36,229 bases of DNA from IMG/VR virus record IMGVR_UViG_3300047470_000523, positions 1 through 36,229 of that record. One strand, written 5' to 3'. Below, in pieces: positions 4,097-31,219 of this stretch. The number at the start of each line of letters is the position of its first letter. Positions within the stretch are counted from its first letter, which is position 1. This DNA is from a virus. The translations under genes and the position numbers were made by a program. The notes under the pieces are model-generated. The model saw nothing but the letters and a program-made list of their open reading frames with translations, was not told the DNA's origin and searched no databases.

Positions 4097-5662
4097 TTAC
4101 TCCTTAATCCACTTCGTGCCGTCGGAACGGTAGACGGTGCCGTTGTCGGCGCGCATGCGTTTGCCGGGGAACTGCGCGGCGGCCGGCAGCATGTCGAACT
4201 TCTGGGACGCTGCGGGAGGCGCGTGTTCCGTGCCGCGCCCGGTGACGCCACTCGAAAGCTCCGCGCGCACCGCTTTAGGGGCAGCCTGTGCAGCCTTGAT
4301 CTCCTGCTGTAACTGCGAGACCGCAGCGGCGTAGGACGGCTGATCCATTGCCGTGCCCAGCAGGTCCTTGGCATGCTCTTTGTCGGCCACGCTCGCGACG
4401 CCGCCGCGCGCCATCGCCTGGCCGTAGGCGTTGGCCAAGGCCGTGTTCGCCATCGCGAACTGGCGGAGGTTCGGGTCGTTGGTGTTGGCATCGAACATGA
4501 CCTGCGCTTTGCCGAACGGGAGGAGGCTGCTGCGCGCGACCTTCGAGGATGCATCCAGCGCGAGCGGCGCCAGCTGCGCCACCTCGTTGGCCGCGATCTC
4601 GATACCAGCACTGCGCGTCGCTGCCGTGCGCTGGCCCGCCTTCGTGCCGCCGAATTCGGCCATCTTGGCGGCGATGTCGGCGCCATTCAGTCCTGCCGCG
4701 TTCGCCTGTTTCGCGATCTCAAGCCGGACGGCGTTGAGGTTCGCCGCCCCCTGCGCGCCGCGGCCGAAGTTCTGCAGTGCCGATGCATCGCCGGCCAGGT
4801 ACTGCTGCGCGGTCATGCGGACGGCGAGCGGGTCCATCACCGCATCCTGGTTGCCGCTGGCCTGCTCCTTGTCGAAGGCCAGGCGGGCAGCCGACTGGCG
4901 ATCGGCGAACGTCATGGTCTTGGCGAAGGTCTGACCTGGGGTCACGCGGTTCTTGTCCACAAACTGCTTCGCGCCACCCAGGTCAACCTCGGTCATTTCC
5001 GGTTTCACGCCCAGACCCGCAATGATCTTCGGGTTGCCGTCCTTGTCCAGCACGTAGTTGACCAGGTTCCCGTTTGTATCGCGCCCGACCTGCGGCGCCT
5101 GCGAGAACTCGGGCTTGAACTTCAGCGCGTGCTCCTCCAGGGCATTCGCCTGCAGGACCAAGGACGGGATGCCGCTCGCACGCATTGCCTGCGCCATGTT
5201 CATCCGCTGCGTGTACGCGTCAGTCACAGCTGGCTGCGCTGCTGAAGGCGGCGCAGACCGACCCCATGCGGAGTCCAGCTTGGCTGCATTGGCAACCGTG
5301 GGTGCCATGTCGTTGCCAAGTACGGCGCGCGCCGGCGCGGTAGCGTCCGGCTGGCTGGGGGTGTTGTGGGCACGGATCCAGTCCTGCGCCGCCAGCGCGT
5401 CCTGGCGGGCCTTGTCCTTGTCGTCCAGCTCCCCCTGCAGCTCGCGCATTTTCAGGCCGTACAGCGCCTGCTGCTGCTGGCGGTCCTGCGCCCCCTGCTG
5501 ACCCTGCTGGTAAGCTCCCAGGCCCTGACCGACAATCTGGCCGAAGCTGGTGGGCATGCGCGACGGGCCGCTGGCCTGCAGGATTTGCGCTGCGGCTGCC
5601 AGCAGCCCCTGCTGTTGGGCGGGGTCGCTGCCGCCGGTGAAGAGGTCGAGTAATCCTGGCAT
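4097..5662 (-). CDS. Virion protein, probable DNA-ejection protein
   Basis: The 521-residue protein begins MPGLLDLFTGG and then has a Gln-rich helical segment around residues 48-66 (AYQQGQQGAQDRQQQQ), the look of phage internal or ejection proteins. The middle is polar and Ala-rich, without a catalytic motif I can name. The C terminus ends YRSDGTKWIKE, closely similar to the end of the 89-residue protein encoded at 7368-7637 (YRHDGTKWNYLG). The ATG at 5662 has AAGGA upstream. It lies between two other large ejection-like genes in one leftward operon; the role is inferred from that position. Confidence 0.7.
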   Translation of the reverse strand: MPGLLDLFTGGSDPAQQQGLLAAAAQILQASGPSRMPTSFGQIVGQGLGAYQQGQQGAQDRQQQQALYGLKMRELQGELDDKDKARQDALAAQDWIRAHNTPSQPDATAPARAVLGNDMAPTVANAAKLDSAWGRSAPPSAAQPAVTDAYTQRMNMAQAMRASGIPSLVLQANALEEHALKFKPEFSQAPQVGRDTNGNLVNYVLDKDGNPKIIAGLGVKPEMTEVDLGGAKQFVDKNRVTPGQTFAKTMTFADRQSAARLAFDKEQASGNQDAVMDPLAVRMTAQQYLAGDASALQNFGRGAQGAANLNAVRLEIAKQANAAGLNGADIAAKMAEFGGTKAGQRTAATRSAGIEIAANEVAQLAPLALDASSKVARSSLLPFGKAQVMFDANTNDPNLRQFAMANTALANAYGQAMARGGVASVADKEHAKDLLGTAMDQPSYAAAVSQLQQEIKAAQAAPKAVRAELSSGVTGRGTEHAPPAASQKFDMLPAAAQFPGKRMRADNGTVYRSDGTKWIKE

Positions 5663-5671
5663 GGTCGATCC

Positions 5672-6853
5672 TTAGAGTGAGAAATTGCCAACCGAGCTCG
5701 GCACGTTGAAGACGTTGCTGTTGCCGATATTCGTCCCGTAGTTGTCGGTGTTTCGGATGGCGTTGAAATTGGTCCCGCCCAGCAGCCCTGCCAGCTGGCC
5801 GCCCATCATTGCGCCGCCAAGCATGTTGCCGCCCGTGTTCTGGTACAGCGGCTGTGTGACGTTGCCAGTCGTCTGGTTGTTGGTCGTCGTCGTCGCGCCT
5901 GCCCCGAGGAACGGCGCAAGGATGCTCGACTGAATACCGAGGCGACTCAAGTCCGAATTGCCATAGCCGTTGGCCGCGCCCAGCAGGCCCTGCTGCAGCT
6001 GGACACCGTTTGCCATCTTCGAAGCGTTCAGCGCGTTCGTGGAGTTCGTCGAGCCCATGTTCGCAATGTCTGCAGCCTGGCGCGCCGCGGCATCCTGCTG
6101 CGCGACGCCGTACTGCTGCGCGCTCAGGCCCTGTGCCGCCGACAGGGCGCGGCTTTGGCCGCTCTCGTAGGCGTTGGCGAGCTGCCCAGAGGTATTCGCG
6201 CTGTTCGCCAGTCCGACCTGCGTAGCCCCGTTGGTGAGTTGCTTCGTGTAGTCGCTGATCGCGTTGCCCTCGGCGATGCCCTGACGGGAGCCGCCGTACT
6301 GGCCGGCGAGCACGCTGTTGCTTCGAATGCCGGGCATGACCGTCTTCAAGAGGCTGTCCGTTACGTTCCCGGTATTTTGCGCGAACTGTGCGTTCGTCAG
6401 CGCATTTCCGTCCTGCAGAGATTTCAGCAACGCCGAAGTGTCGCCGCCGCCCAGCAGATTCTGGAACGTCGGTGTCAGGTCCACGTTGTTCTGCGACGGC
6501 GCGTTGACCTGCGCCGCCTGCATCGTCGGTGCGCCGTACTGGTCGTTTGCCAGCGAGTTTGTCGTCGCATATCCGTTGTTGAGGATCTGGGTCCCGTTGG
6601 CGTTCAGGAAGCTGTTGCCGATGCCGGACAGGTTCGAGCCGCCATTCGCCATGTTGCCGAGGCTGCCCAGGATTCCGCCGCTCCCGCTGGTGCCCAGCAG
6701 CTTCGCGATCGCTGGGTCGAGCGTCGTTGTCTGGGTGCCGTTCTGGGTGCCGCTCTGGTTTGAGCCGGCCTCCGCGGCTTTCGCCATATTTTTGCTGGAC
6801 AGGTAAGCCCCACCAGCACCGATAACTGCACCTCCGATGACAGCCCAAGCCAT
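5672..6853 (-). CDS. Asn/Gly-rich virion protein with hydrophobic N terminus, probable ejection protein
   Basis: The 393-residue protein starts MAWAVIGGAVIGAGGAYLSS, a glycine-zipper-like hydrophobic helix that could insert into a membrane, followed by a low-complexity body very rich in Asn, Gly, Gln, Ser and Thr. Membrane-active N termini of this type are seen in ejection proteins of short-tailed phages, which build a channel through the cell envelope. I started at 6853 because AAGGGA lies about eight bases upstream; a longer open frame would run into the gene before it. It is the first of three consecutive large genes of this kind. Confidence 0.7.
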   Translation of the reverse strand: MAWAVIGGAVIGAGGAYLSSKNMAKAAEAGSNQSGTQNGTQTTTLDPAIAKLLGTSGSGGILGSLGNMANGGSNLSGIGNSFLNANGTQILNNGYATTNSLANDQYGAPTMQAAQVNAPSQNNVDLTPTFQNLLGGGDTSALLKSLQDGNALTNAQFAQNTGNVTDSLLKTVMPGIRSNSVLAGQYGGSRQGIAEGNAISDYTKQLTNGATQVGLANSANTSGQLANAYESGQSRALSAAQGLSAQQYGVAQQDAAARQAADIANMGSTNSTNALNASKMANGVQLQQGLLGAANGYGNSDLSRLGIQSSILAPFLGAGATTTTNNQTTGNVTQPLYQNTGGNMLGGAMMGGQLAGLLGGTNFNAIRNTDNYGTNIGNSNVFNVPSSVGNFSL

Positions 6854-25074: not shown

Positions 25075-25102
25075 AGTATAGCGAATCGCTAAACCTCGTC
25101 AA
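25075..25102 (-). promoter_or_regulatory. Leftward early promoter (cro promoter)
   Basis: On the minus strand TTGACG (25097-25102), a 16-base spacer and TATACT (25075-25080) form a strong sigma70-type promoter. The operator 25079-25091 lies in the spacer and touches the -10, so repressor binding should block transcription. The first gene is the cro-like gene at 25066. Confidence 0.8.
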
Positions 25103-25139
25103 TAGCGAATCGCATATTTCAAACTTTAGCGCGATGCTA
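25079..25139. promoter_or_regulatory. Three repressor operators at 24-base spacing
   Basis: Three 13-base elements read TAGCGAATCGCTA (25079-25091, perfect palindrome), TAGCGAATCGCAT (25103-25115) and TAGCGCGATGCTA (25127-25139). Their start points are exactly 24 bases apart, about two helical turns, as for cooperative dimers. They cover the leftward promoter and the probable repressor promoter. Two further copies occur at 27334 and 27368. Confidence 0.85.
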
Positions 25140-25145
25140 TTTAAT
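25117..25145 (+). promoter_or_regulatory. Probable repressor maintenance promoter (PRM-like), leaderless start
   Basis: TTTCAA (25117-25122), a 17-base spacer and TTTAAT (25140-25145) form a weak promoter whose start would fall at about 25151-25153, on the ATG of the repressor gene (25152). This suggests a leaderless message, as for lambda cI. The third operator (25127-25139) lies in the spacer, so high repressor levels would self-repress. Confidence 0.45.
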
Positions 25146-25151
25146 GCTCGT

Positions 25152-25892
25152 ATGCAAACAAATGACGAAGTGCGCCGACAAAACCTCCTGATCGCGATAG
25201 AGCGATCAGGCTCGGCCGCAAAGCTCGCAGAAAAGGCGAAGACGTCGGCCGCCTACCTGAGCCAGATCAAGAACCGTACGCCGGATAGCAAGTCGGGAAC
25301 GCCGAAGACGATGGGCGATGACATGGCGCGTCGCATCGAGGCTGCAATTGGCGAGCAGCCTGGATGGATGGATGTTTCCCGCGAGCCGCAAGAGGCCGCG
25401 GGCGTGAGGGCAGATATTCTCGATTTGGTGCCGGGTGCTAAACGCGTACACGCGGCCGACCAAGACGACCCGAGCATGACGCAGATCCGGAGGGTGAGGA
25501 TCAAGGTGCAGGCCGGCATCACGGGCTTCCAGGTGGAGCCGGAACACTACGATGGCGAAACCCAGGGCGTGCCCACGAAATGGATGCTGAGGGAAGGGTT
25601 GAGCAAAGATGCGCTGGTGTCGACCACCGTTCGCGGTGAGAGCATGGAGCCGGCCTTGTACGACGGTGACGTGATCGTCGTGAACACGCGCGATACGCAG
25701 CTGGTCTCCGGTGCTGTCTATGTCATCAATTACGAGGGCGAGGCGGTTGTCAAGCGAATGCTGCGTGACGCCGGGCAGTGGTGGCTGACTTCCGATAATT
25801 CAGACCAGCGAAAGTATCACCGCCAGTTATGCAAAGGCGCCGAGTGCATCGTTATCGGTAAAGTGGTTCGCAAAGAAAGCACTCATATATAA
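25152..25892 (+). CDS. CI-like repressor, XRE helix-turn-helix plus S24 peptidase
   Basis: The 246-residue protein has an N-terminal helix-turn-helix (residues about 7-45: NLLIAIERSGSAAKLAEKAKTSAAYLSQIKNR) and a C-terminal LexA/CI S24 domain. The S24 serine is Ser164 in RGESMEP and the general base is Lys201 (EAVVKRML). A likely cleavage site is Ala121-Gly122. RecA-stimulated self-cleavage on DNA damage would induce the prophage. The start at 25152 fits the PRM-like promoter, though upstream in-frame ATGs exist. It faces the cro-like gene and is followed after 11 bases by a cargo gene. Confidence 0.93.
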   Translation: MQTNDEVRRQNLLIAIERSGSAAKLAEKAKTSAAYLSQIKNRTPDSKSGTPKTMGDDMARRIEAAIGEQPGWMDVSREPQEAAGVRADILDLVPGAKRVHAADQDDPSMTQIRRVRIKVQAGITGFQVEPEHYDGETQGVPTKWMLREGLSKDALVSTTVRGESMEPALYDGDVIVVNTRDTQLVSGAVYVINYEGEAVVKRMLRDAGQWWLTSDNSDQRKYHRQLCKGAECIVIGKVVRKESTHI

Positions 25893-25903
25893 GGGCAATA
25901 AAT

Positions 25904-26503
25904 ATGAAAAGGCTGCTTTTAGTTATGGTCACACTGGGCGCTTTTGAATGCTCCGCACAGACCTCTTCGGCCACCGTTGAAGACCTCGGCAATTATATTT
26001 CCCAAAATGCTCCGCTGGCGGACAGCGGAAAGCTTCTATGGTCTGACTTCTACAAGCAAATCTTTAGCAAACTGGCTGCGCTGAATGCCTCTGGCGAAAT
26101 GCTCGAGCGAGAGAATAGGTTGATCCGCAATGCTGAGCTTTATGAGGCAGGGAAGATCGACAAGAGCGAATTCGACTATCGGCGTCGGATGGTTCAGGCA
26201 GAGGCGGCGAGCGCCGACCAGGCCGCCAGGAATGCGGAGCAGGCACAGCGAGCCATCGAGCAGCGCGGCACCGAGGCGCGAGAGCAGCAGCGGTCCAATG
26301 CCATCCTGGCCACTGCCGCCCAGTTACTACAGGCGAGCGCCCCCCGAACTTTGGCGCCGGCCCCATCGCCAGTTCCGAATGGCGGCATGACCGGTTTTCT
26401 GCAGAGCCAATCGGTTAATGGATTCTTGCGGTATTGCCGCTACAGCAACGGCGTGGTCAATACGATTAACTCAATCAACCTCTGTCCGCTGAGCATTCAA
26501 TAA
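25904..26503 (+). CDS. Exported protein of unknown function, cI-linked cargo
   Basis: The 199-residue protein has a basic start and hydrophobic core (MKRLLLVMVTLGAFECSA), a signal peptide probably cut after CSA. The mature protein has a helical, charged centre (residues about 60-125: ERENRLIRNAELYEAGKIDKSEFDYRRRMVQAEAASADQAARNAEQAQRAIEQR) and two cysteines near the C terminus (YCRYSNG...NLCPL) that could pair outside the cytoplasm. It lies 11 bases after the repressor gene and so is probably expressed in lysogeny, the position of rexAB in lambda. A cell-envelope or superinfection-exclusion role is a hypothesis. Confidence 0.7.
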   Translation: MKRLLLVMVTLGAFECSAQTSSATVEDLGNYISQNAPLADSGKLLWSDFYKQIFSKLAALNASGEMLERENRLIRNAELYEAGKIDKSEFDYRRRMVQAEAASADQAARNAEQAQRAIEQRGTEAREQQRSNAILATAAQLLQASAPRTLAPAPSPVPNGGMTGFLQSQSVNGFLRYCRYSNGVVNTINSINLCPLSIQ

Positions 26504-26509
26504 AAATAA

Positions 26510-26530
26510 TCCCCGCCAGCTGCGCGGGGA
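26510..26530. terminator. GC hairpin after the first cargo gene
   Basis: TCCCCGC pairs with GCGGGGA over a seven-base loop. The T-run is on the minus-strand side only (A-rich before it on the plus strand), so on the plus strand it is more likely an attenuating or mRNA-stabilising hairpin than a full terminator. Confidence 0.4.
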
Positions 26531-26544
26531 GTGGAGGCTAAAGA

Positions 26545-26763
26545 ATGAAAAGCGAAACGATTGCGAAAATTCAACAAGCATGCGTAGATCAGCAAAGGCT
26601 CAACGTTTCTGCGATGCGCTGTATGATTGAGATTGGAAAGTTATTCCCTGCAGGCGAAAAGCGTGAGCCGTTGGTTCAGGCACTAGAGGACATGTCTAAA
26701 CTCATCGAAAAGCAATTTAGTAGTCTGAGTGAGGCGCTGTCGGCACTGGATGAGGAGGCATAA
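26545..26763 (+). CDS. Small helical protein, cI-linked cargo
   Basis: The 72-residue protein is mostly helical (AKIQQACVDQQRLNVSAMRCMIEIGKLFPAGEKREPLVQALEDMSKLIEKQFSSLSEALSALDEEA) and may form a helical bundle. GGAGG is eight bases before the ATG. It ends directly before the next gene, so the two are probably coupled. Base composition is more AT-rich than the structural genes, as for its neighbours. No family is recognised. Confidence 0.65.
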   Translation: MKSETIAKIQQACVDQQRLNVSAMRCMIEIGKLFPAGEKREPLVQALEDMSKLIEKQFSSLSEALSALDEEA

Positions 26764-27207
26764 ATGCAGCGCGATCCCGAAAACCTGCGTTACTTTAATG
26801 ATGAGATTCGTCGTTTGCGCGATTCCGATCAAACTGGTCGGAGTACGTTTGACGGCGGCGGGGGTGGCGGCTATGATCACCCCATGGAAGAGCGAGTCAA
26901 AAAACTGGAAGAGCTGGCTGGCAAGACCGTCGAGCGCATCGTGAGCATCGAGCGTGACGTGGCTGTCATTCGGTCGAACTATGCGACGAAGGAAGATATC
27001 AAGACTGTCATAGCCGACCTACATAAAGAGATCAACGCTCAGACCTGGAAGGTCGTTGGCACAGCCGCGCTTCTGTGTGGTGCGGTTTTCTGGTTGGCCC
27101 GTAACGTTCAGCCGTTACCGTCAGCATCTACGCCAGCGGCTGTTGTTCCTACCGCGGTGCCAGCGCCCGCCGCCCCAGCCCCACGGCCGCCAACCCCCGC
27201 GCACTAA
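26764..27207 (+). CDS. Coiled-coil protein with one membrane span, cI-linked cargo
   Basis: The 147-residue protein has a charged N terminus, a glycine run (FDGGGGGGYDH, residues about 29-39), a coiled coil (MEERVKKLEELAGKTVERIVSIERDVAVIRSNYATKEDIKTVIADLHKEINAQ, residues about 41-93), one transmembrane segment (VVGTAALLCGAVFWLA, about 97-112) and a Pro/Ala-rich tail. GAGGAGG is seven bases upstream. Coiled coils of this type with one span occur in many prophage proteins of unknown role (XhlA-like appearance). The rigid coil, membrane anchor and cI linkage would suit a sensor or superinfection-exclusion protein, which is hypothetical. Confidence 0.7.
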   Translation: MQRDPENLRYFNDEIRRLRDSDQTGRSTFDGGGGGGYDHPMEERVKKLEELAGKTVERIVSIERDVAVIRSNYATKEDIKTVIADLHKEINAQTWKVVGTAALLCGAVFWLARNVQPLPSASTPAAVVPTAVPAPAAPAPRPPTPAH

Positions 27208-27247
27208 GCCAATCCCGCACTTACGGGAAGAATTCCGTAGCCCCCAT

Positions 27248-27270
27248 GCCCGCACGCGCGGGCTTTTTTT
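27248..27270 (+). terminator. Rho-independent terminator of the repressor-cargo operon
   Basis: GCCCGC pairs with GCGGGC over a four-base loop and is followed by seven Ts on the plus strand. It ends the lysogeny operon cI plus cargo and insulates it from the second early promoter about 90 bases further on. Confidence 0.9.
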
Positions 27271-27321
27271 CGCCCTGACGCCGGCTCGGCGTGCCCGACG
27301 AGTTCGGGCTGTGGAGCAGTG

Positions 27322-27384
27322 TAGCGAAAGATTTAGCGCATCGCTATAAATAATGCTTGACGCAATTTAGCGAAACGCTATACG
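27322..27384 (+). promoter_or_regulatory. Rightward early promoter with repressor operators
   Basis: Two operators match those at cI: TAGCGCATCGCTA (27334-27346) and TAGCGAAACGCTA (27368-27380); a half site (TAGCGAAAG) lies at 27322. The promoter is TTGACG (27357-27362), a 16-base spacer and TATACG (27379-27384), with the second operator in the spacer touching the -10. This is the same design as the leftward promoter at 25075. It drives the genes from 27440 to the integrase. Confidence 0.82.
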
Positions 27385-27439
27385 ATTACTCCATCGCAAC
27401 CGAGCTCAGCACTCGCCGAGCCGCAGATGGAGAGAACCG

Positions 27440-27601
27440 ATGTACGCACACATCTACAACGCACCTGGCAAGAAAGCCCGCCTGTTCCTGACCACTGGTC
27501 CGTCGCTCTCTGAGGGCGTCGTGTCCGAGCAGCTGTTCGACAGCAAGGCTGACGCCAAGAAGGCCGCCAAGGCCGCCGGCGCCAAGGCCTGGAACTTCTG
27601 A
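27440..27601 (+). CDS. Small basic phage protein, first gene of the rightward operon
   Basis: The 53-residue protein has a beta-rich first half (MYAHIYNAPGKKARLFLTTGPSL) and a Lys/Ala-rich helical end (SKADAKKAAKAAGAKAWNF). GGAGAG lies six bases before the ATG. It is the first gene after the second operator-promoter, where lambda has N or other small early genes, but nothing links it to antitermination. No family is recognised. Confidence 0.65.
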   Translation: MYAHIYNAPGKKARLFLTTGPSLSEGVVSEQLFDSKADAKKAAKAAGAKAWNF

Positions 27602-27613
27602 TCGGGCCTGATC

Positions 27614-27727
27614 ATGCGCGCCACTACCCGCAACCAATTCCGCGCCTACGACCGCATCGTCACCGGCCTGATGCTGATCTGCGCCGCCGGCTTCGTGTTC
27701 GGCGCACTCGTCGTCCTGGGGTTCTGA
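27614..27727 (+). CDS. Tiny membrane protein
   Basis: The 37-residue protein has a basic N terminus (MRATTRNQFRAYDR) and one hydrophobic span (IVTGLMLICAAGFVFGALVVLGF). It lies between the first gene and the next one with only short gaps, so it is part of the operon. No good Shine-Dalgarno is visible, and it has no known family. It was kept because phages often encode such short membrane peptides. Confidence 0.45.
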   Translation: MRATTRNQFRAYDRIVTGLMLICAAGFVFGALVVLGF

Positions 27728-28599: not shown

Positions 28600-29589
28600 A
28601 TGAATCAAGTAGTCGCCAGCCCGGCCAAGAGCCTCAGCACGTTCCTGGATAAGTACAAGGGACAGATTGCCAACGCGCTCCCGAAGCACATCAGCCCCGA
28701 CCGCATGGTCCGTCTGACCATGACCGCCTTCAGCCAGAATCAGGCGCTGCAGCGCTGCGACCTGCACAGCATCTTCGGCTCCGTGGTCGTGGCCGCGCAG
28801 CTGGGCCTGGAGATCGGCGTCGGCGGCCAAGGCTATCTGGTCCCTTACGGTAACAAGGCAACCTTCGTCCCGGGCTGGCAGGGCCTCGTCGACCTGGTGT
28901 CGCGCGCCGGCCGCGCCACGGTCTGGACTGGCGCGGTGTATCACGGCGACGACTTCGACTGGGCGCTGGGTGATCGGCCGTACGTGAAACACCGCCCTGG
29001 CGCCGGCGGCGACAGCTACAAGGATATCTCGCACGTTTACGCAATCGGCCGCGTCAACGGAAGCGAATACCCGGTGATCGAGGTTTGGACCATGGACCGC
29101 GTCATCAAGCACCTGAACAAGTTCAACAAGGTCGGCGGCCGCCACTACGCCCTGGAGAAGAACGGCCAGAACATGGAAATGTACGCTCGCAAGGTGGTGC
29201 TGCTCCAGGTGCTCAAGTACATGCCGAAATCGATTGAGGTGCAGCGCGCCGTCGACGTAGCTACGGCGGTGGACGCCGGCAAGCACTTCACGATCGACAG
29301 CGACATGGTCGTAATTGACAACGGTGACGATGATCAGGGCAGCGTCGACCAGGACACCGGCGAGGTGCGCGGCGCTACCACCAGCAGCTCGAGCGCGACC
29401 ACCCAGGGCGGTGCCGGCCTGCCGGTATGCACCGATGAAGAGTTCAAGAAGAACGCCCCCGCGTGGCGCAAGCAAATTCTGGACAAAAAGAAAACCGCAG
29501 CGGAACTGACCGCGTTCATCGAAACCCGCGCCGTGCTGAGCGAAGAGCAGAAGCTCACGATCGACAGCTGGTCGCACGAAGCCGAATAA
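28600..29589 (+). CDS. recT: RecT single-strand annealing recombinase
   Basis: The 329-residue protein matches RecT: LPKHISPDRMVRLTMTAFSQNQALQRCDLHSIFGSVVVAAQLGLEIG near residues 27-73, then GQGYLVPYGNKATFVPGWQGLVDLVSRAG and the typical segment with GRHYALEKNGQNMEMYARKVVLLQVLKYMPKS. It binds single-stranded DNA and anneals homologous strands. The YqaJ exonuclease gene follows 10 bases later, the usual RecE/RecT type pair. The acidic C-terminal tail after residue 230 is less conserved. GAGAGG is about nine bases before the ATG. Confidence 0.93.
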   Translation: MNQVVASPAKSLSTFLDKYKGQIANALPKHISPDRMVRLTMTAFSQNQALQRCDLHSIFGSVVVAAQLGLEIGVGGQGYLVPYGNKATFVPGWQGLVDLVSRAGRATVWTGAVYHGDDFDWALGDRPYVKHRPGAGGDSYKDISHVYAIGRVNGSEYPVIEVWTMDRVIKHLNKFNKVGGRHYALEKNGQNMEMYARKVVLLQVLKYMPKSIEVQRAVDVATAVDAGKHFTIDSDMVVIDNGDDDQGSVDQDTGEVRGATTSSSSATTQGGAGLPVCTDEEFKKNAPAWRKQILDKKKTAAELTAFIETRAVLSEEQKLTIDSWSHEAE

Positions 29590-29599
29590 GGAGACCACC

Positions 29600-31219
29600 A
29601 TGCAAGTGCACACCCTCAAGCAAGGTACGCCGGAATGGCACGCATACCGCGCGGCGCACTTCAACGCCAGCGACGCGCCGGCCATGATGGGCTGCTCGCC
29701 GTACAAGAGCCGCAACGACCTGCTGCACGAGCGGCACACCGGCATGGCGCCGGACGTCGACGCCGGTACCCAGGCGCGCTTCGATGATGGCCATCGTTTC
29801 GAGGCGCTGGCGCGTCCGCGGGCCGAGATCCTGGTCGGCGAGGACCTGTACCCGGTGACCGGCTCGCTGGGCGAGTTCTCGGCATCCTTCGACGGCATCA
29901 CCATGGCCGGCGACGTCGCGTGGGAGCACAAGACCCTGAACGATGAGATCCGTTCCTGCGAGGCCGCCGAGCAGTTGGGCCTGCACTACCGCGTCCAGAT
30001 GGAGCAGCAGCTGCTCGTTTCCGGCGCTGCAAGCTGCCTGTTCCTCGCCACGAAATGGGACAACAACGACAGCCTGGTAGAGGAGCGGCATTTCTGGTAC
30101 GCACCGGACGAATCCTTGCGCGCCCAGATCATCGCTGGCTGGGCCCAGTTCGCCGCCGACTTGGCCGCGTATGAACCGAAGGAATATGCGGCGAAGCCCG
30201 TGGCCGACCCGATCATGCAACTGCCGGCCCTGGTGATCCAGATCCGCGGCGAGGTCGCCATGAGCAACCTGCCAGCCTTCAAGGCCAAGGCGGAGCGCTT
30301 CATCGCAAACATCAAGACCGACCTGGTCACCGACCAGGACTTCGCCGATGCCGAGGCGACCGTCAAATTCTGCGAGACGGCCGAGGGCGACCTGGAGCAG
30401 GCGAAGCGCGCAGCGCTTGAGCAGACCGCCGACATCGCGGAACTGATGCGCACCATCGACCACATCAGCGAGCAGCTGCGCGCCAAGCGCCTGATCCTGC
30501 AGCGTACCGTGAAGGACAAGAAGGAGCTGATCAAGTCCGGCATCCTGGCCAACGTGAGGCAGGCCTTCGCCGATCACGTCGCCGCGCTCGAGAAGGAGAT
30601 CGCGCCACTGCGCCTGGTCTTCCAGGCCCGCGACTTCGCCGGCGCCATGAAAAACAAACGCACGCTGGCCACCCTGCAGGATGCCGTCGATACCGAGCTG
30701 GCCGCCGGCAAGATCGCCGCCGACGCCCTCGCCGCAGCCGTTCGTGGCCGGCTGGCCTGGTACCGCGAGCACGCGGCTGGCCATGAGCTGCTGTTCGCCG
30801 ACCTTCAGACCATCATCCAGAAGCCGGACGAGGATTTCCAGCTGATCGTGCGCACACGCCTCGAGCAGCACAAGCGCGTCGAAGCCGAGAAGGCTGAGCG
30901 CGCACGCCAGGACGCGGTCGCTCCGGCCACCGCGGCAGCAGTCGAACCAGCACCGGCCCCGGCGCCGGCCGCCCAGGTGACGCGCATCGTGCTGGCGCGT
31001 CCGGCGACCGCCAGCAGCACCCCGCCCAGCCTGCGCCTTGGCCAGATCAGCGAGCGCCTCGGCTTCCCGCTTACCGGCGAATTCCTCGGTCGGCTGGGTT
31101 TCACGCCAGCCGCCACCGACAAGTCGGCCCGGCTGTACCACGAGCGCGACTTCGCGGCCATGTGCGCCGCCTTGATCGACCACATTACCGCCGTTTCCCA
31201 GGCCCAGCAGGCCGCTTGA
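29600..31219 (+). CDS. YqaJ-type exonuclease fused to a coiled-coil region and C-terminal domain
   Basis: The first about 200 residues of this 539-residue protein match the YqaJ/lambda-exo family: HTLKQGTPEWHAYRAAHFNASDAPAMMGCSPYKS at the start, then the active-site pattern DG...AWEHKT and YRVQMEQQLLVSGA. It makes single-stranded DNA ends for RecT. Residues about 200-440 are helical and charged, resembling DUF1351. A Pro/Ala-rich linker (APAPAPAAQ) leads to a C-terminal domain (LRLGQISERLGFPLTGEFLGRLGF..., residues about 474-530). In many phages these parts are separate genes; here they are one. GGAG lies eight bases before the ATG. Confidence 0.85.
   Translation: MQVHTLKQGTPEWHAYRAAHFNASDAPAMMGCSPYKSRNDLLHERHTGMAPDVDAGTQARFDDGHRFEALARPRAEILVGEDLYPVTGSLGEFSASFDGITMAGDVAWEHKTLNDEIRSCEAAEQLGLHYRVQMEQQLLVSGAASCLFLATKWDNNDSLVEERHFWYAPDESLRAQIIAGWAQFAADLAAYEPKEYAAKPVADPIMQLPALVIQIRGEVAMSNLPAFKAKAERFIANIKTDLVTDQDFADAEATVKFCETAEGDLEQAKRAALEQTADIAELMRTIDHISEQLRAKRLILQRTVKDKKELIKSGILANVRQAFADHVAALEKEIAPLRLVFQARDFAGAMKNKRTLATLQDAVDTELAAGKIAADALAAAVRGRLAWYREHAAGHELLFADLQTIIQKPDEDFQLIVRTRLEQHKRVEAEKAERARQDAVAPATAAAVEPAPAPAPAAQVTRIVLARPATASSTPPSLRLGQISERLGFPLTGEFLGRLGFTPAATDKSARLYHERDFAAMCAALIDHITAVSQAQQAA

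Follow-up and report, generated by a model that had tools for sequence, protein, structure and literature searches.

In phage lambda, PL leads to recombination genes and the OR operators follow one another in steps of about 24 bp; the presence of three operators per side is a lambda trait and is not general to lambdoid regions. The OL and OR clusters lie 2.3 kb apart in lambda, about 700 bp apart in HK022, and about 630 bp apart in phiKO2, and in the latter two phages they flank the repressor gene (HK022 CI and phiKO2 CB), with looping demonstrated in both (PMC8053113). A second source gives three far sites for lambda and describes the rex genes as transcribed from PRM along with cI (PMC11077077). 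Here, we analyzed a 36,229-base viral record (the window; 64% G+C, carrying no completeness estimate), which very probably contains an immunity region of the lambda type, in which a CI-like repressor would act on three near and two far sites and block both flanking operons jointly. A nucleotide search of phage records returned three weak records, and none of the titles in a partial literature listing concerned these phages, their operator classes, or the leader described below.

Operators, promoters, and gene order in the window

The layout of the region (Table 1) resembles lambdoid OL/OR regions in several respects. Divergent early promoters bracket the repressor operon, and one operator motif overlaps both of them. 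The CI-type repressor bears an S24 self-cleavage domain (the domain is assigned by PF00717 at 69.2 bits, and the cleavage is predicted); it also matches phrog_4 and, across residues 1 to 85, phrog_12107. A Cro-type gene stands first in the operon pointing away from the repressor, with its ATG 8 bases past the leftward −10; it scores above the cut-off for YdaS_toxin and below it for P22_Cro (19.4), and it matches phrog_35, a transcriptional repressor family. On the far side, the rightward promoter reads into a small gene and then into the RecT and RecE-like genes. The number of operators departs from the lambda pattern of three per side, with three near and two far sites in the window.

Table 1. 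Features of the immunity region (window coordinates)
Feature	Position	Strand	Details
Cro-like gene, 81 aa	24821..25066	−	Heads leftward operon; Pfam YdaS_toxin 46.2 bits (cut-off 30)
Leftward early promoter (PR-like)	25075..25102	−	TTGACG-16-TATACT; promoter scan 10/12
Near operator 1, TAGCGAATCGCTA	25079..25091	.	0 mismatches; over spacer and −10 of leftward promoter
Near operator 2, TAGCGAATCGCAT	25103..25115	.	2 mismatches; adjoins leftward −35
Near operator 3, TAGCGCGATGCTA	25127..25139	.	1 mismatch; overlaps putative repressor promoter
Putative repressor-promoter −10 (PRM-like), TATTTA	25138..25143	+	Candidate, picked by eye
CI-like repressor, 246 aa	25152..25892	+	S24 peptidase domain, residues 118-239
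Cargo gene 1, 199 aa	25904..26503	+	Signal-like N terminus (by eye); no Pfam, PHROG, or PADLOC match
Cargo gene 2, 72 aa	26545..26763	+	No Pfam, PHROG, or PADLOC match
Cargo gene 3, 147 aa	26764..27207	+	One hydrophobic stretch (by eye); phrog_6324, phrog_3556, phrog_6136
Intrinsic terminator	27248..27270	+	6 GC pairs, loop 4, T7; separates cargo from far promoter
Far operator 2, TAGCGCATCGCTA	27334..27346	.	0 mismatches; 5' of rightward −35
Rightward early promoter (PL-like)	27357..27386	+	TTGACG-16-TATACG or TTGACG-18-TACGAT
Far operator 1, TAGCGAAACGCTA	27368..27380	.	0 mismatches; over spacer and −10 of rightward promoter
Conserved leader, ~45 nt	27386..27434	+	Ends at Shine-Dalgarno of gene 1; 63.8 bits, model R1
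Rightward operon gene 1, 53 aa	27440..27601	+	No assigned function
RecT-like annealing protein	28600..29589	+	PF03837, phrog_148
RecE-like exonuclease	29600..31219	+	PF09588, phrog_7655

The first-pass annotation of this DNA had placed the repressor and cargo genes between two identical promoters, each with a 13-bp palindrome in its spacer sharing its final TA with the −10. Gene order from 25152 to 27207 bears this out, and the palindrome, with the shared TA, is present in both promoters (near operator 1 and far operator 1). The promoters are identical in the −35 and in where the operator sits; the register of the −10 is ambiguous at the rightward promoter, where the promoter scan returned TTGACG-18-TACGAT (9/12) rather than 16-TATACG. 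Three operators had been described at 24-bp steps by the repressor; the spacing (25079, 25103, and 25127) is exact, but only the site at 25079 matches the motif exactly. Two further operators proposed at 27334 and 27368 are both there without mismatch, 34 bp apart as opposed to the 24-bp near steps. A candidate third far operator at 27322 was rejected, being a half-site only and, by eye, not kept among class A relatives (see below).

We then compared these counts with expectation. The exact motif, TAGCGNNNCGCTA, occurs three times in the window (25079, 27334, and 27368; 300 dinucleotide shuffles, mean of 0.017 and maximum of 1), and TTGACG-N16-TATAC occurs once per strand, in each case at an early promoter of Table 1 (2 versus 0 in 100 shuffles). 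With up to two mismatches allowed, the motif was not enriched in the window (17 found versus 20.3 expected). Wide occurrence of the motif elsewhere in phage or host had been named as an observation that would speak against the annotation, and the counts give no such objection: the window has zero exact sites beyond the three, and five bacterial genomes (5.4 to 6.0 Mb), scanned as carriers of the leader (five of the six found) and not as an identified host of this phage, hold 0 to 2 exact sites each, compared to 7 to 15 for the reversed motif.

A repressor transcript starting near 25150, downstream of the putative −10, would be almost leaderless and would place the center of near site 2 at about −41. 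Lambda CI activates PRM from a position close to this.

Near and far operators across relatives

Searching viral contigs with the window repressor yielded 70 loci, in many of which the match was restricted to the C-terminal S24 part while the DNA-reading part differed. Fifty of the 70 were sorted by eye into classes A to H on their upstream palindromes, leaving 20 unsorted. For the window and 40 loci of classes A, B, C, D, E, and G, the 2.2 kb past the repressor was then searched with each of the six class motifs. The motif of a locus's own class recurred there in 40 of 41 loci (8/9, 4/4, 4/4, 5/5, 14/14, and 5/5, respectively), in a sample that includes near-duplicates such as L004/L005, L016/L017, and L044/L045 and with mismatch limits and a widened class B pattern that were fixed only after the first own-motif search. 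Own-motif matches numbered 16, 9, 4, 5, 17, and 9, compared to shuffle expectations of 0.03, 0.07, 0.00, 0.00, 1.83, and 0.00; at 2 mismatches, the class E motif is loose (1.83 expected in 14 loci). Nonmatching combinations of class and motif were empty in 29 of 30 cells, the exception being the class E motif in one of four class C loci, and more distant control stretches held six matches to the class E motif and none to the others.

Among class A relatives, the near sites hold their position and the far pair, 33 to 34 bp apart, stands 1,241 to 2,457 bp from the repressor start with differing cargo. Two loci (L067, +484/+508, and L069, +1144/+1167 from the repressor match start) show the far layout of terminator, site, TTGAC, and site over the −10 without the leader. 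Burkholderia phage BgManors32 (L103, 4232-5278) resembles class A in its sites at either end: the near sites, spaced by 24 to 25 bp, carry 1, 2, and 1 mismatches, and the two far sites, separated by 25 bp, carry 1 mismatch; the 133-aa ORF in its repressor position had no Pfam match, and hence no S24 domain was found. Far sites were not found in two class F loci with more than 2 kb downstream (five of the eight loci of this class end 3 bases past the repressor match) or in two class H loci, and in L100 a class-H-like pair stands before the leader. L033 has near sites and, within its 4.3 kb, no far ones and no leader; this locus (5001-6041) combines class A near sites with a 347-aa repressor that has its S24 domain at residues 219 to 340. 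In L060, L065, L074, and L090, which have class A operators at both ends, the repressor match ends at residue 178 to 203 with 44 to 47% identity; divergence or exchange of the C-terminal part seems to have taken place in these repressors, and those of L060 and L065 retain an S24 domain.

The second route started from the far promoter. A leader pattern free of operator and repressor sequence identified 22 viral stretches and one genome stretch (Massilia sp. HP4), of which 17 were used, the six left out being contigs already in the locus set. For each promoter, the best palindrome was taken and then sought upstream. A cluster of the same palindrome was found 1.4 to 2.5 kb upstream of the far promoter in all 10 loci with at least 2.8 kb of upstream sequence, with a stray single match elsewhere in two loci (L075 and L087); no cluster was found in the remaining seven, which have 66 to 1,531 bases upstream. 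The ten palindromes were also swapped onto the nine other loci, over a zone (−2600 to −1300) chosen after the first result had been seen. Of the 90 pairings, 6 produced a cluster, each of them between two of the class A loci L074, L079, and L090 (the first and last of which are almost identical); the 84 pairings across classes produced none. An ORF at the cluster gave a BLAST match to the window repressor in 7 of the 10 loci (no match in L075, L087, or L088). Classes A and C account for four of the ten, while L082, L084, L087, L088, L093, and L094 bring five or six more motif classes (L093 resembles L084); there are therefore at least 11 motif classes in all. Words shared between the near region and the leader promoter in L011, L019, L024, L029, L036, and L057 had no control and were not counted as classes.

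Two other comparisons were set aside. Exact 9-mers common to the near and downstream regions (window, P = 0.21; P below 0.05 in 22 of 61 loci) proved too blunt for short gapped half-sites, as several loci whose sites are clear came out near P = 0.5. A de novo dyad scan recovered far sites in many loci and missed them in L025, L051, and L063, and its null was weak (score of at least 2 in 29%, and of at least 4 in 4%, of 732 nonmatching pairs). The case therefore rests on the motif classes and the reverse test. Since both routes show it, we conclude that the two ends of the repressor operon share a type of site and change together.

Cargo genes and the conserved leader

Across 37 loci including the window, the distance from repressor to far site changes with the genes between them. 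We counted plus-strand ORFs of at least 60 aa in these loci with a rough, ad hoc signal and lipobox rule, by which signal-like N termini occurred in 26 of 73 cargo ORFs and in 1 of 100 ORFs behind the far promoter, and lipoboxes in 12 of 73 and 0 of 100, respectively. PADLOC gave one match among ten cargo proteins (three from the window), the L009 Bro-N protein, as candidate PDC-S13. The three PHROGs of window cargo gene 3 are all of unknown function, and this protein had no Pfam or PADLOC match. Cargo would be expressed with the repressor in lysogens, and if so, its composition suggests a likely role in superinfection exclusion or surface change. In L036, the leader lies at 5580, 579 bp past the repressor match start at 5001, a minimal form with scarcely any room for cargo.

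The leader behind the far promoter is present as a single copy in the window. A model built from 43 leaders, the window's own among them, matched 43 of 71 sources exactly once at E below 0.01, with no match at that level in the remaining 28; weaker matches had E of 0.089 or more. The accepted matches include ten loci outside the model (L008, L011, L016, L017, L019, L024, L029, L036, L057, and L058), among which two pairs look alike. By inspection, most of 37 loci have a similar leader; L020, L044, and L060 are exceptions, and the leader is longer in L008 and L016. It is common to different operator classes and different first genes (e.g., L009 3125-3174, L049 6145-6193, and L096 6346-6393). 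Within the bacterial family of the Massilia genome, the leader was found in 6 of 294 genomes, Massilia included (E of 1e-4 or better), preceded by an operator-like pair in four of the six; L101 and L102 failed the pattern used. Against Rfam, the window had no match at the gathering score and one chance match within 27200 to 27700.

The consensus fold of the leader comprises three pairs only, one of which shows 17 two-sided changes, splitting into two sequence types. For its outer stem to pair with the gene 1 Shine-Dalgarno, transcription would have to begin before about 27389. The −10 spacing of many relatives suggests a start at A27393, which leaves half of the outer stem outside the RNA and a fold no better than that of shuffles (window z of 0.34 from 27393 versus −3.38 from 27388; later versus earlier start, −0.45 versus −2.78 in L049 and −1.27 versus −3.42 in L046). 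It is possible, though we lean against it, that the leader is a new cis-acting phage element, whether an RNA hairpin masking the Shine-Dalgarno or an antitermination or stability signal, forming a fixed module between interchangeable operators and different first genes in phages that include a Massilia prophage. It may function in translation control, mRNA stability, or antitermination.

Probable joint control of two operons and comparison with known phages

The first-pass annotation had proposed that one repressor silences two opposite early operons, in the manner of lambda OL/OR. The joint change of near and far operators in at least 11 motif classes strongly supports this proposal. In addition, RecT and RecE-like genes lie behind the far promoter, much as recombination genes lie behind PL in lambda. 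The resemblance between near and far sites could in principle be coincidence, as the lack of enrichment at two mismatches might suggest, but three exact sites against 0.017 expected and the class-by-class pattern in both tests of relatives make this the least credible explanation, with a negligible likelihood. Nor do we give much more weight to the far sites being a duplicated copy or remnant of the near region that is not in use: the −35 and operator position are the same at both promoters, yet near sites step by 24 bp and far sites by 34 bp, the two sets diverge in sequence, and 40 of 41 loci retain far sites across changing cargo and motif classes, so that idle duplication appears highly improbable. 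Given the joint change, neither chance nor idle duplication is an explanation, and control by the adjacent repressor is one.

Alternatively, the far sites might serve chiefly the Cro-like protein, with the repressor acting at the near cluster alone. CI-like and Cro-like proteins of lambdoid phages do share operators, and the window has a Cro-like gene. However, the far motif tracks the near motif, which itself lies within the repressor's own upstream region, and a far promoter left free in the lysogen would leave recT and recE on; we consider this division of labor unlikely. Use of the sites by the Cro-like protein alongside the repressor is possible.

Under joint control by the repressor, binding in a lysogen would cover the spacer and −10 of each promoter and shut the leftward operon together with the recT/recE operon on the right. 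The repressor and cargo would be transcribed from a weak promoter beneath near site 3, probably with assistance from repressor on near site 2, and S24 self-cleavage upon damage would release both operons simultaneously. The distance between the clusters, about 2.2 kb, would also permit a repressor loop between them, which is a fair guess. This group of phages offers a natural experiment, with at least 11 operator classes on one scaffold and both clusters changed in step across variable cargo. Operator-repressor coevolution, the need for looping, and what lysogen-expressed envelope proteins do thereby become testable.

The cargo slot resembles, by description, the Ltp-type superinfection exclusion lipoproteins of phage TP-J34, which are described as prophage-encoded lipoproteins and come from a host group other than that of the window phage. 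With HK022 CI and phiKO2 CB, the window shares OL/OR clusters on either side of the repressor, a likeness of layout; the clusters of those phages are about 700 and 630 bp apart, compared to 2.2 kb here. Antitermination at PL by lambda N/nut or HK022 put involves a leader RNA that allows polymerase through terminators; the window has a leader at its far promoter, for which Rfam gave no match. The closest likeness is to lambda OL/OR with cI-rexA-rexB, where divergent lytic promoters flank a repressor and accessory operon and the clusters lie a similar distance apart (2.3 kb in lambda and about 2.2 kb in the window). Unlike lambda, with its three far sites, the window has two conserved far sites, a YdaS-type Cro-like gene, another operator sequence, cargo without a match to any family of known function, and a conserved leader at the far promoter. 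That these phages extend the already known lambda-type OL/OR bracket, here with 3 + 2 sites, is well supported, and the twin-operator design of lambda thus reaches a phage group with one member in a Massilia genome.
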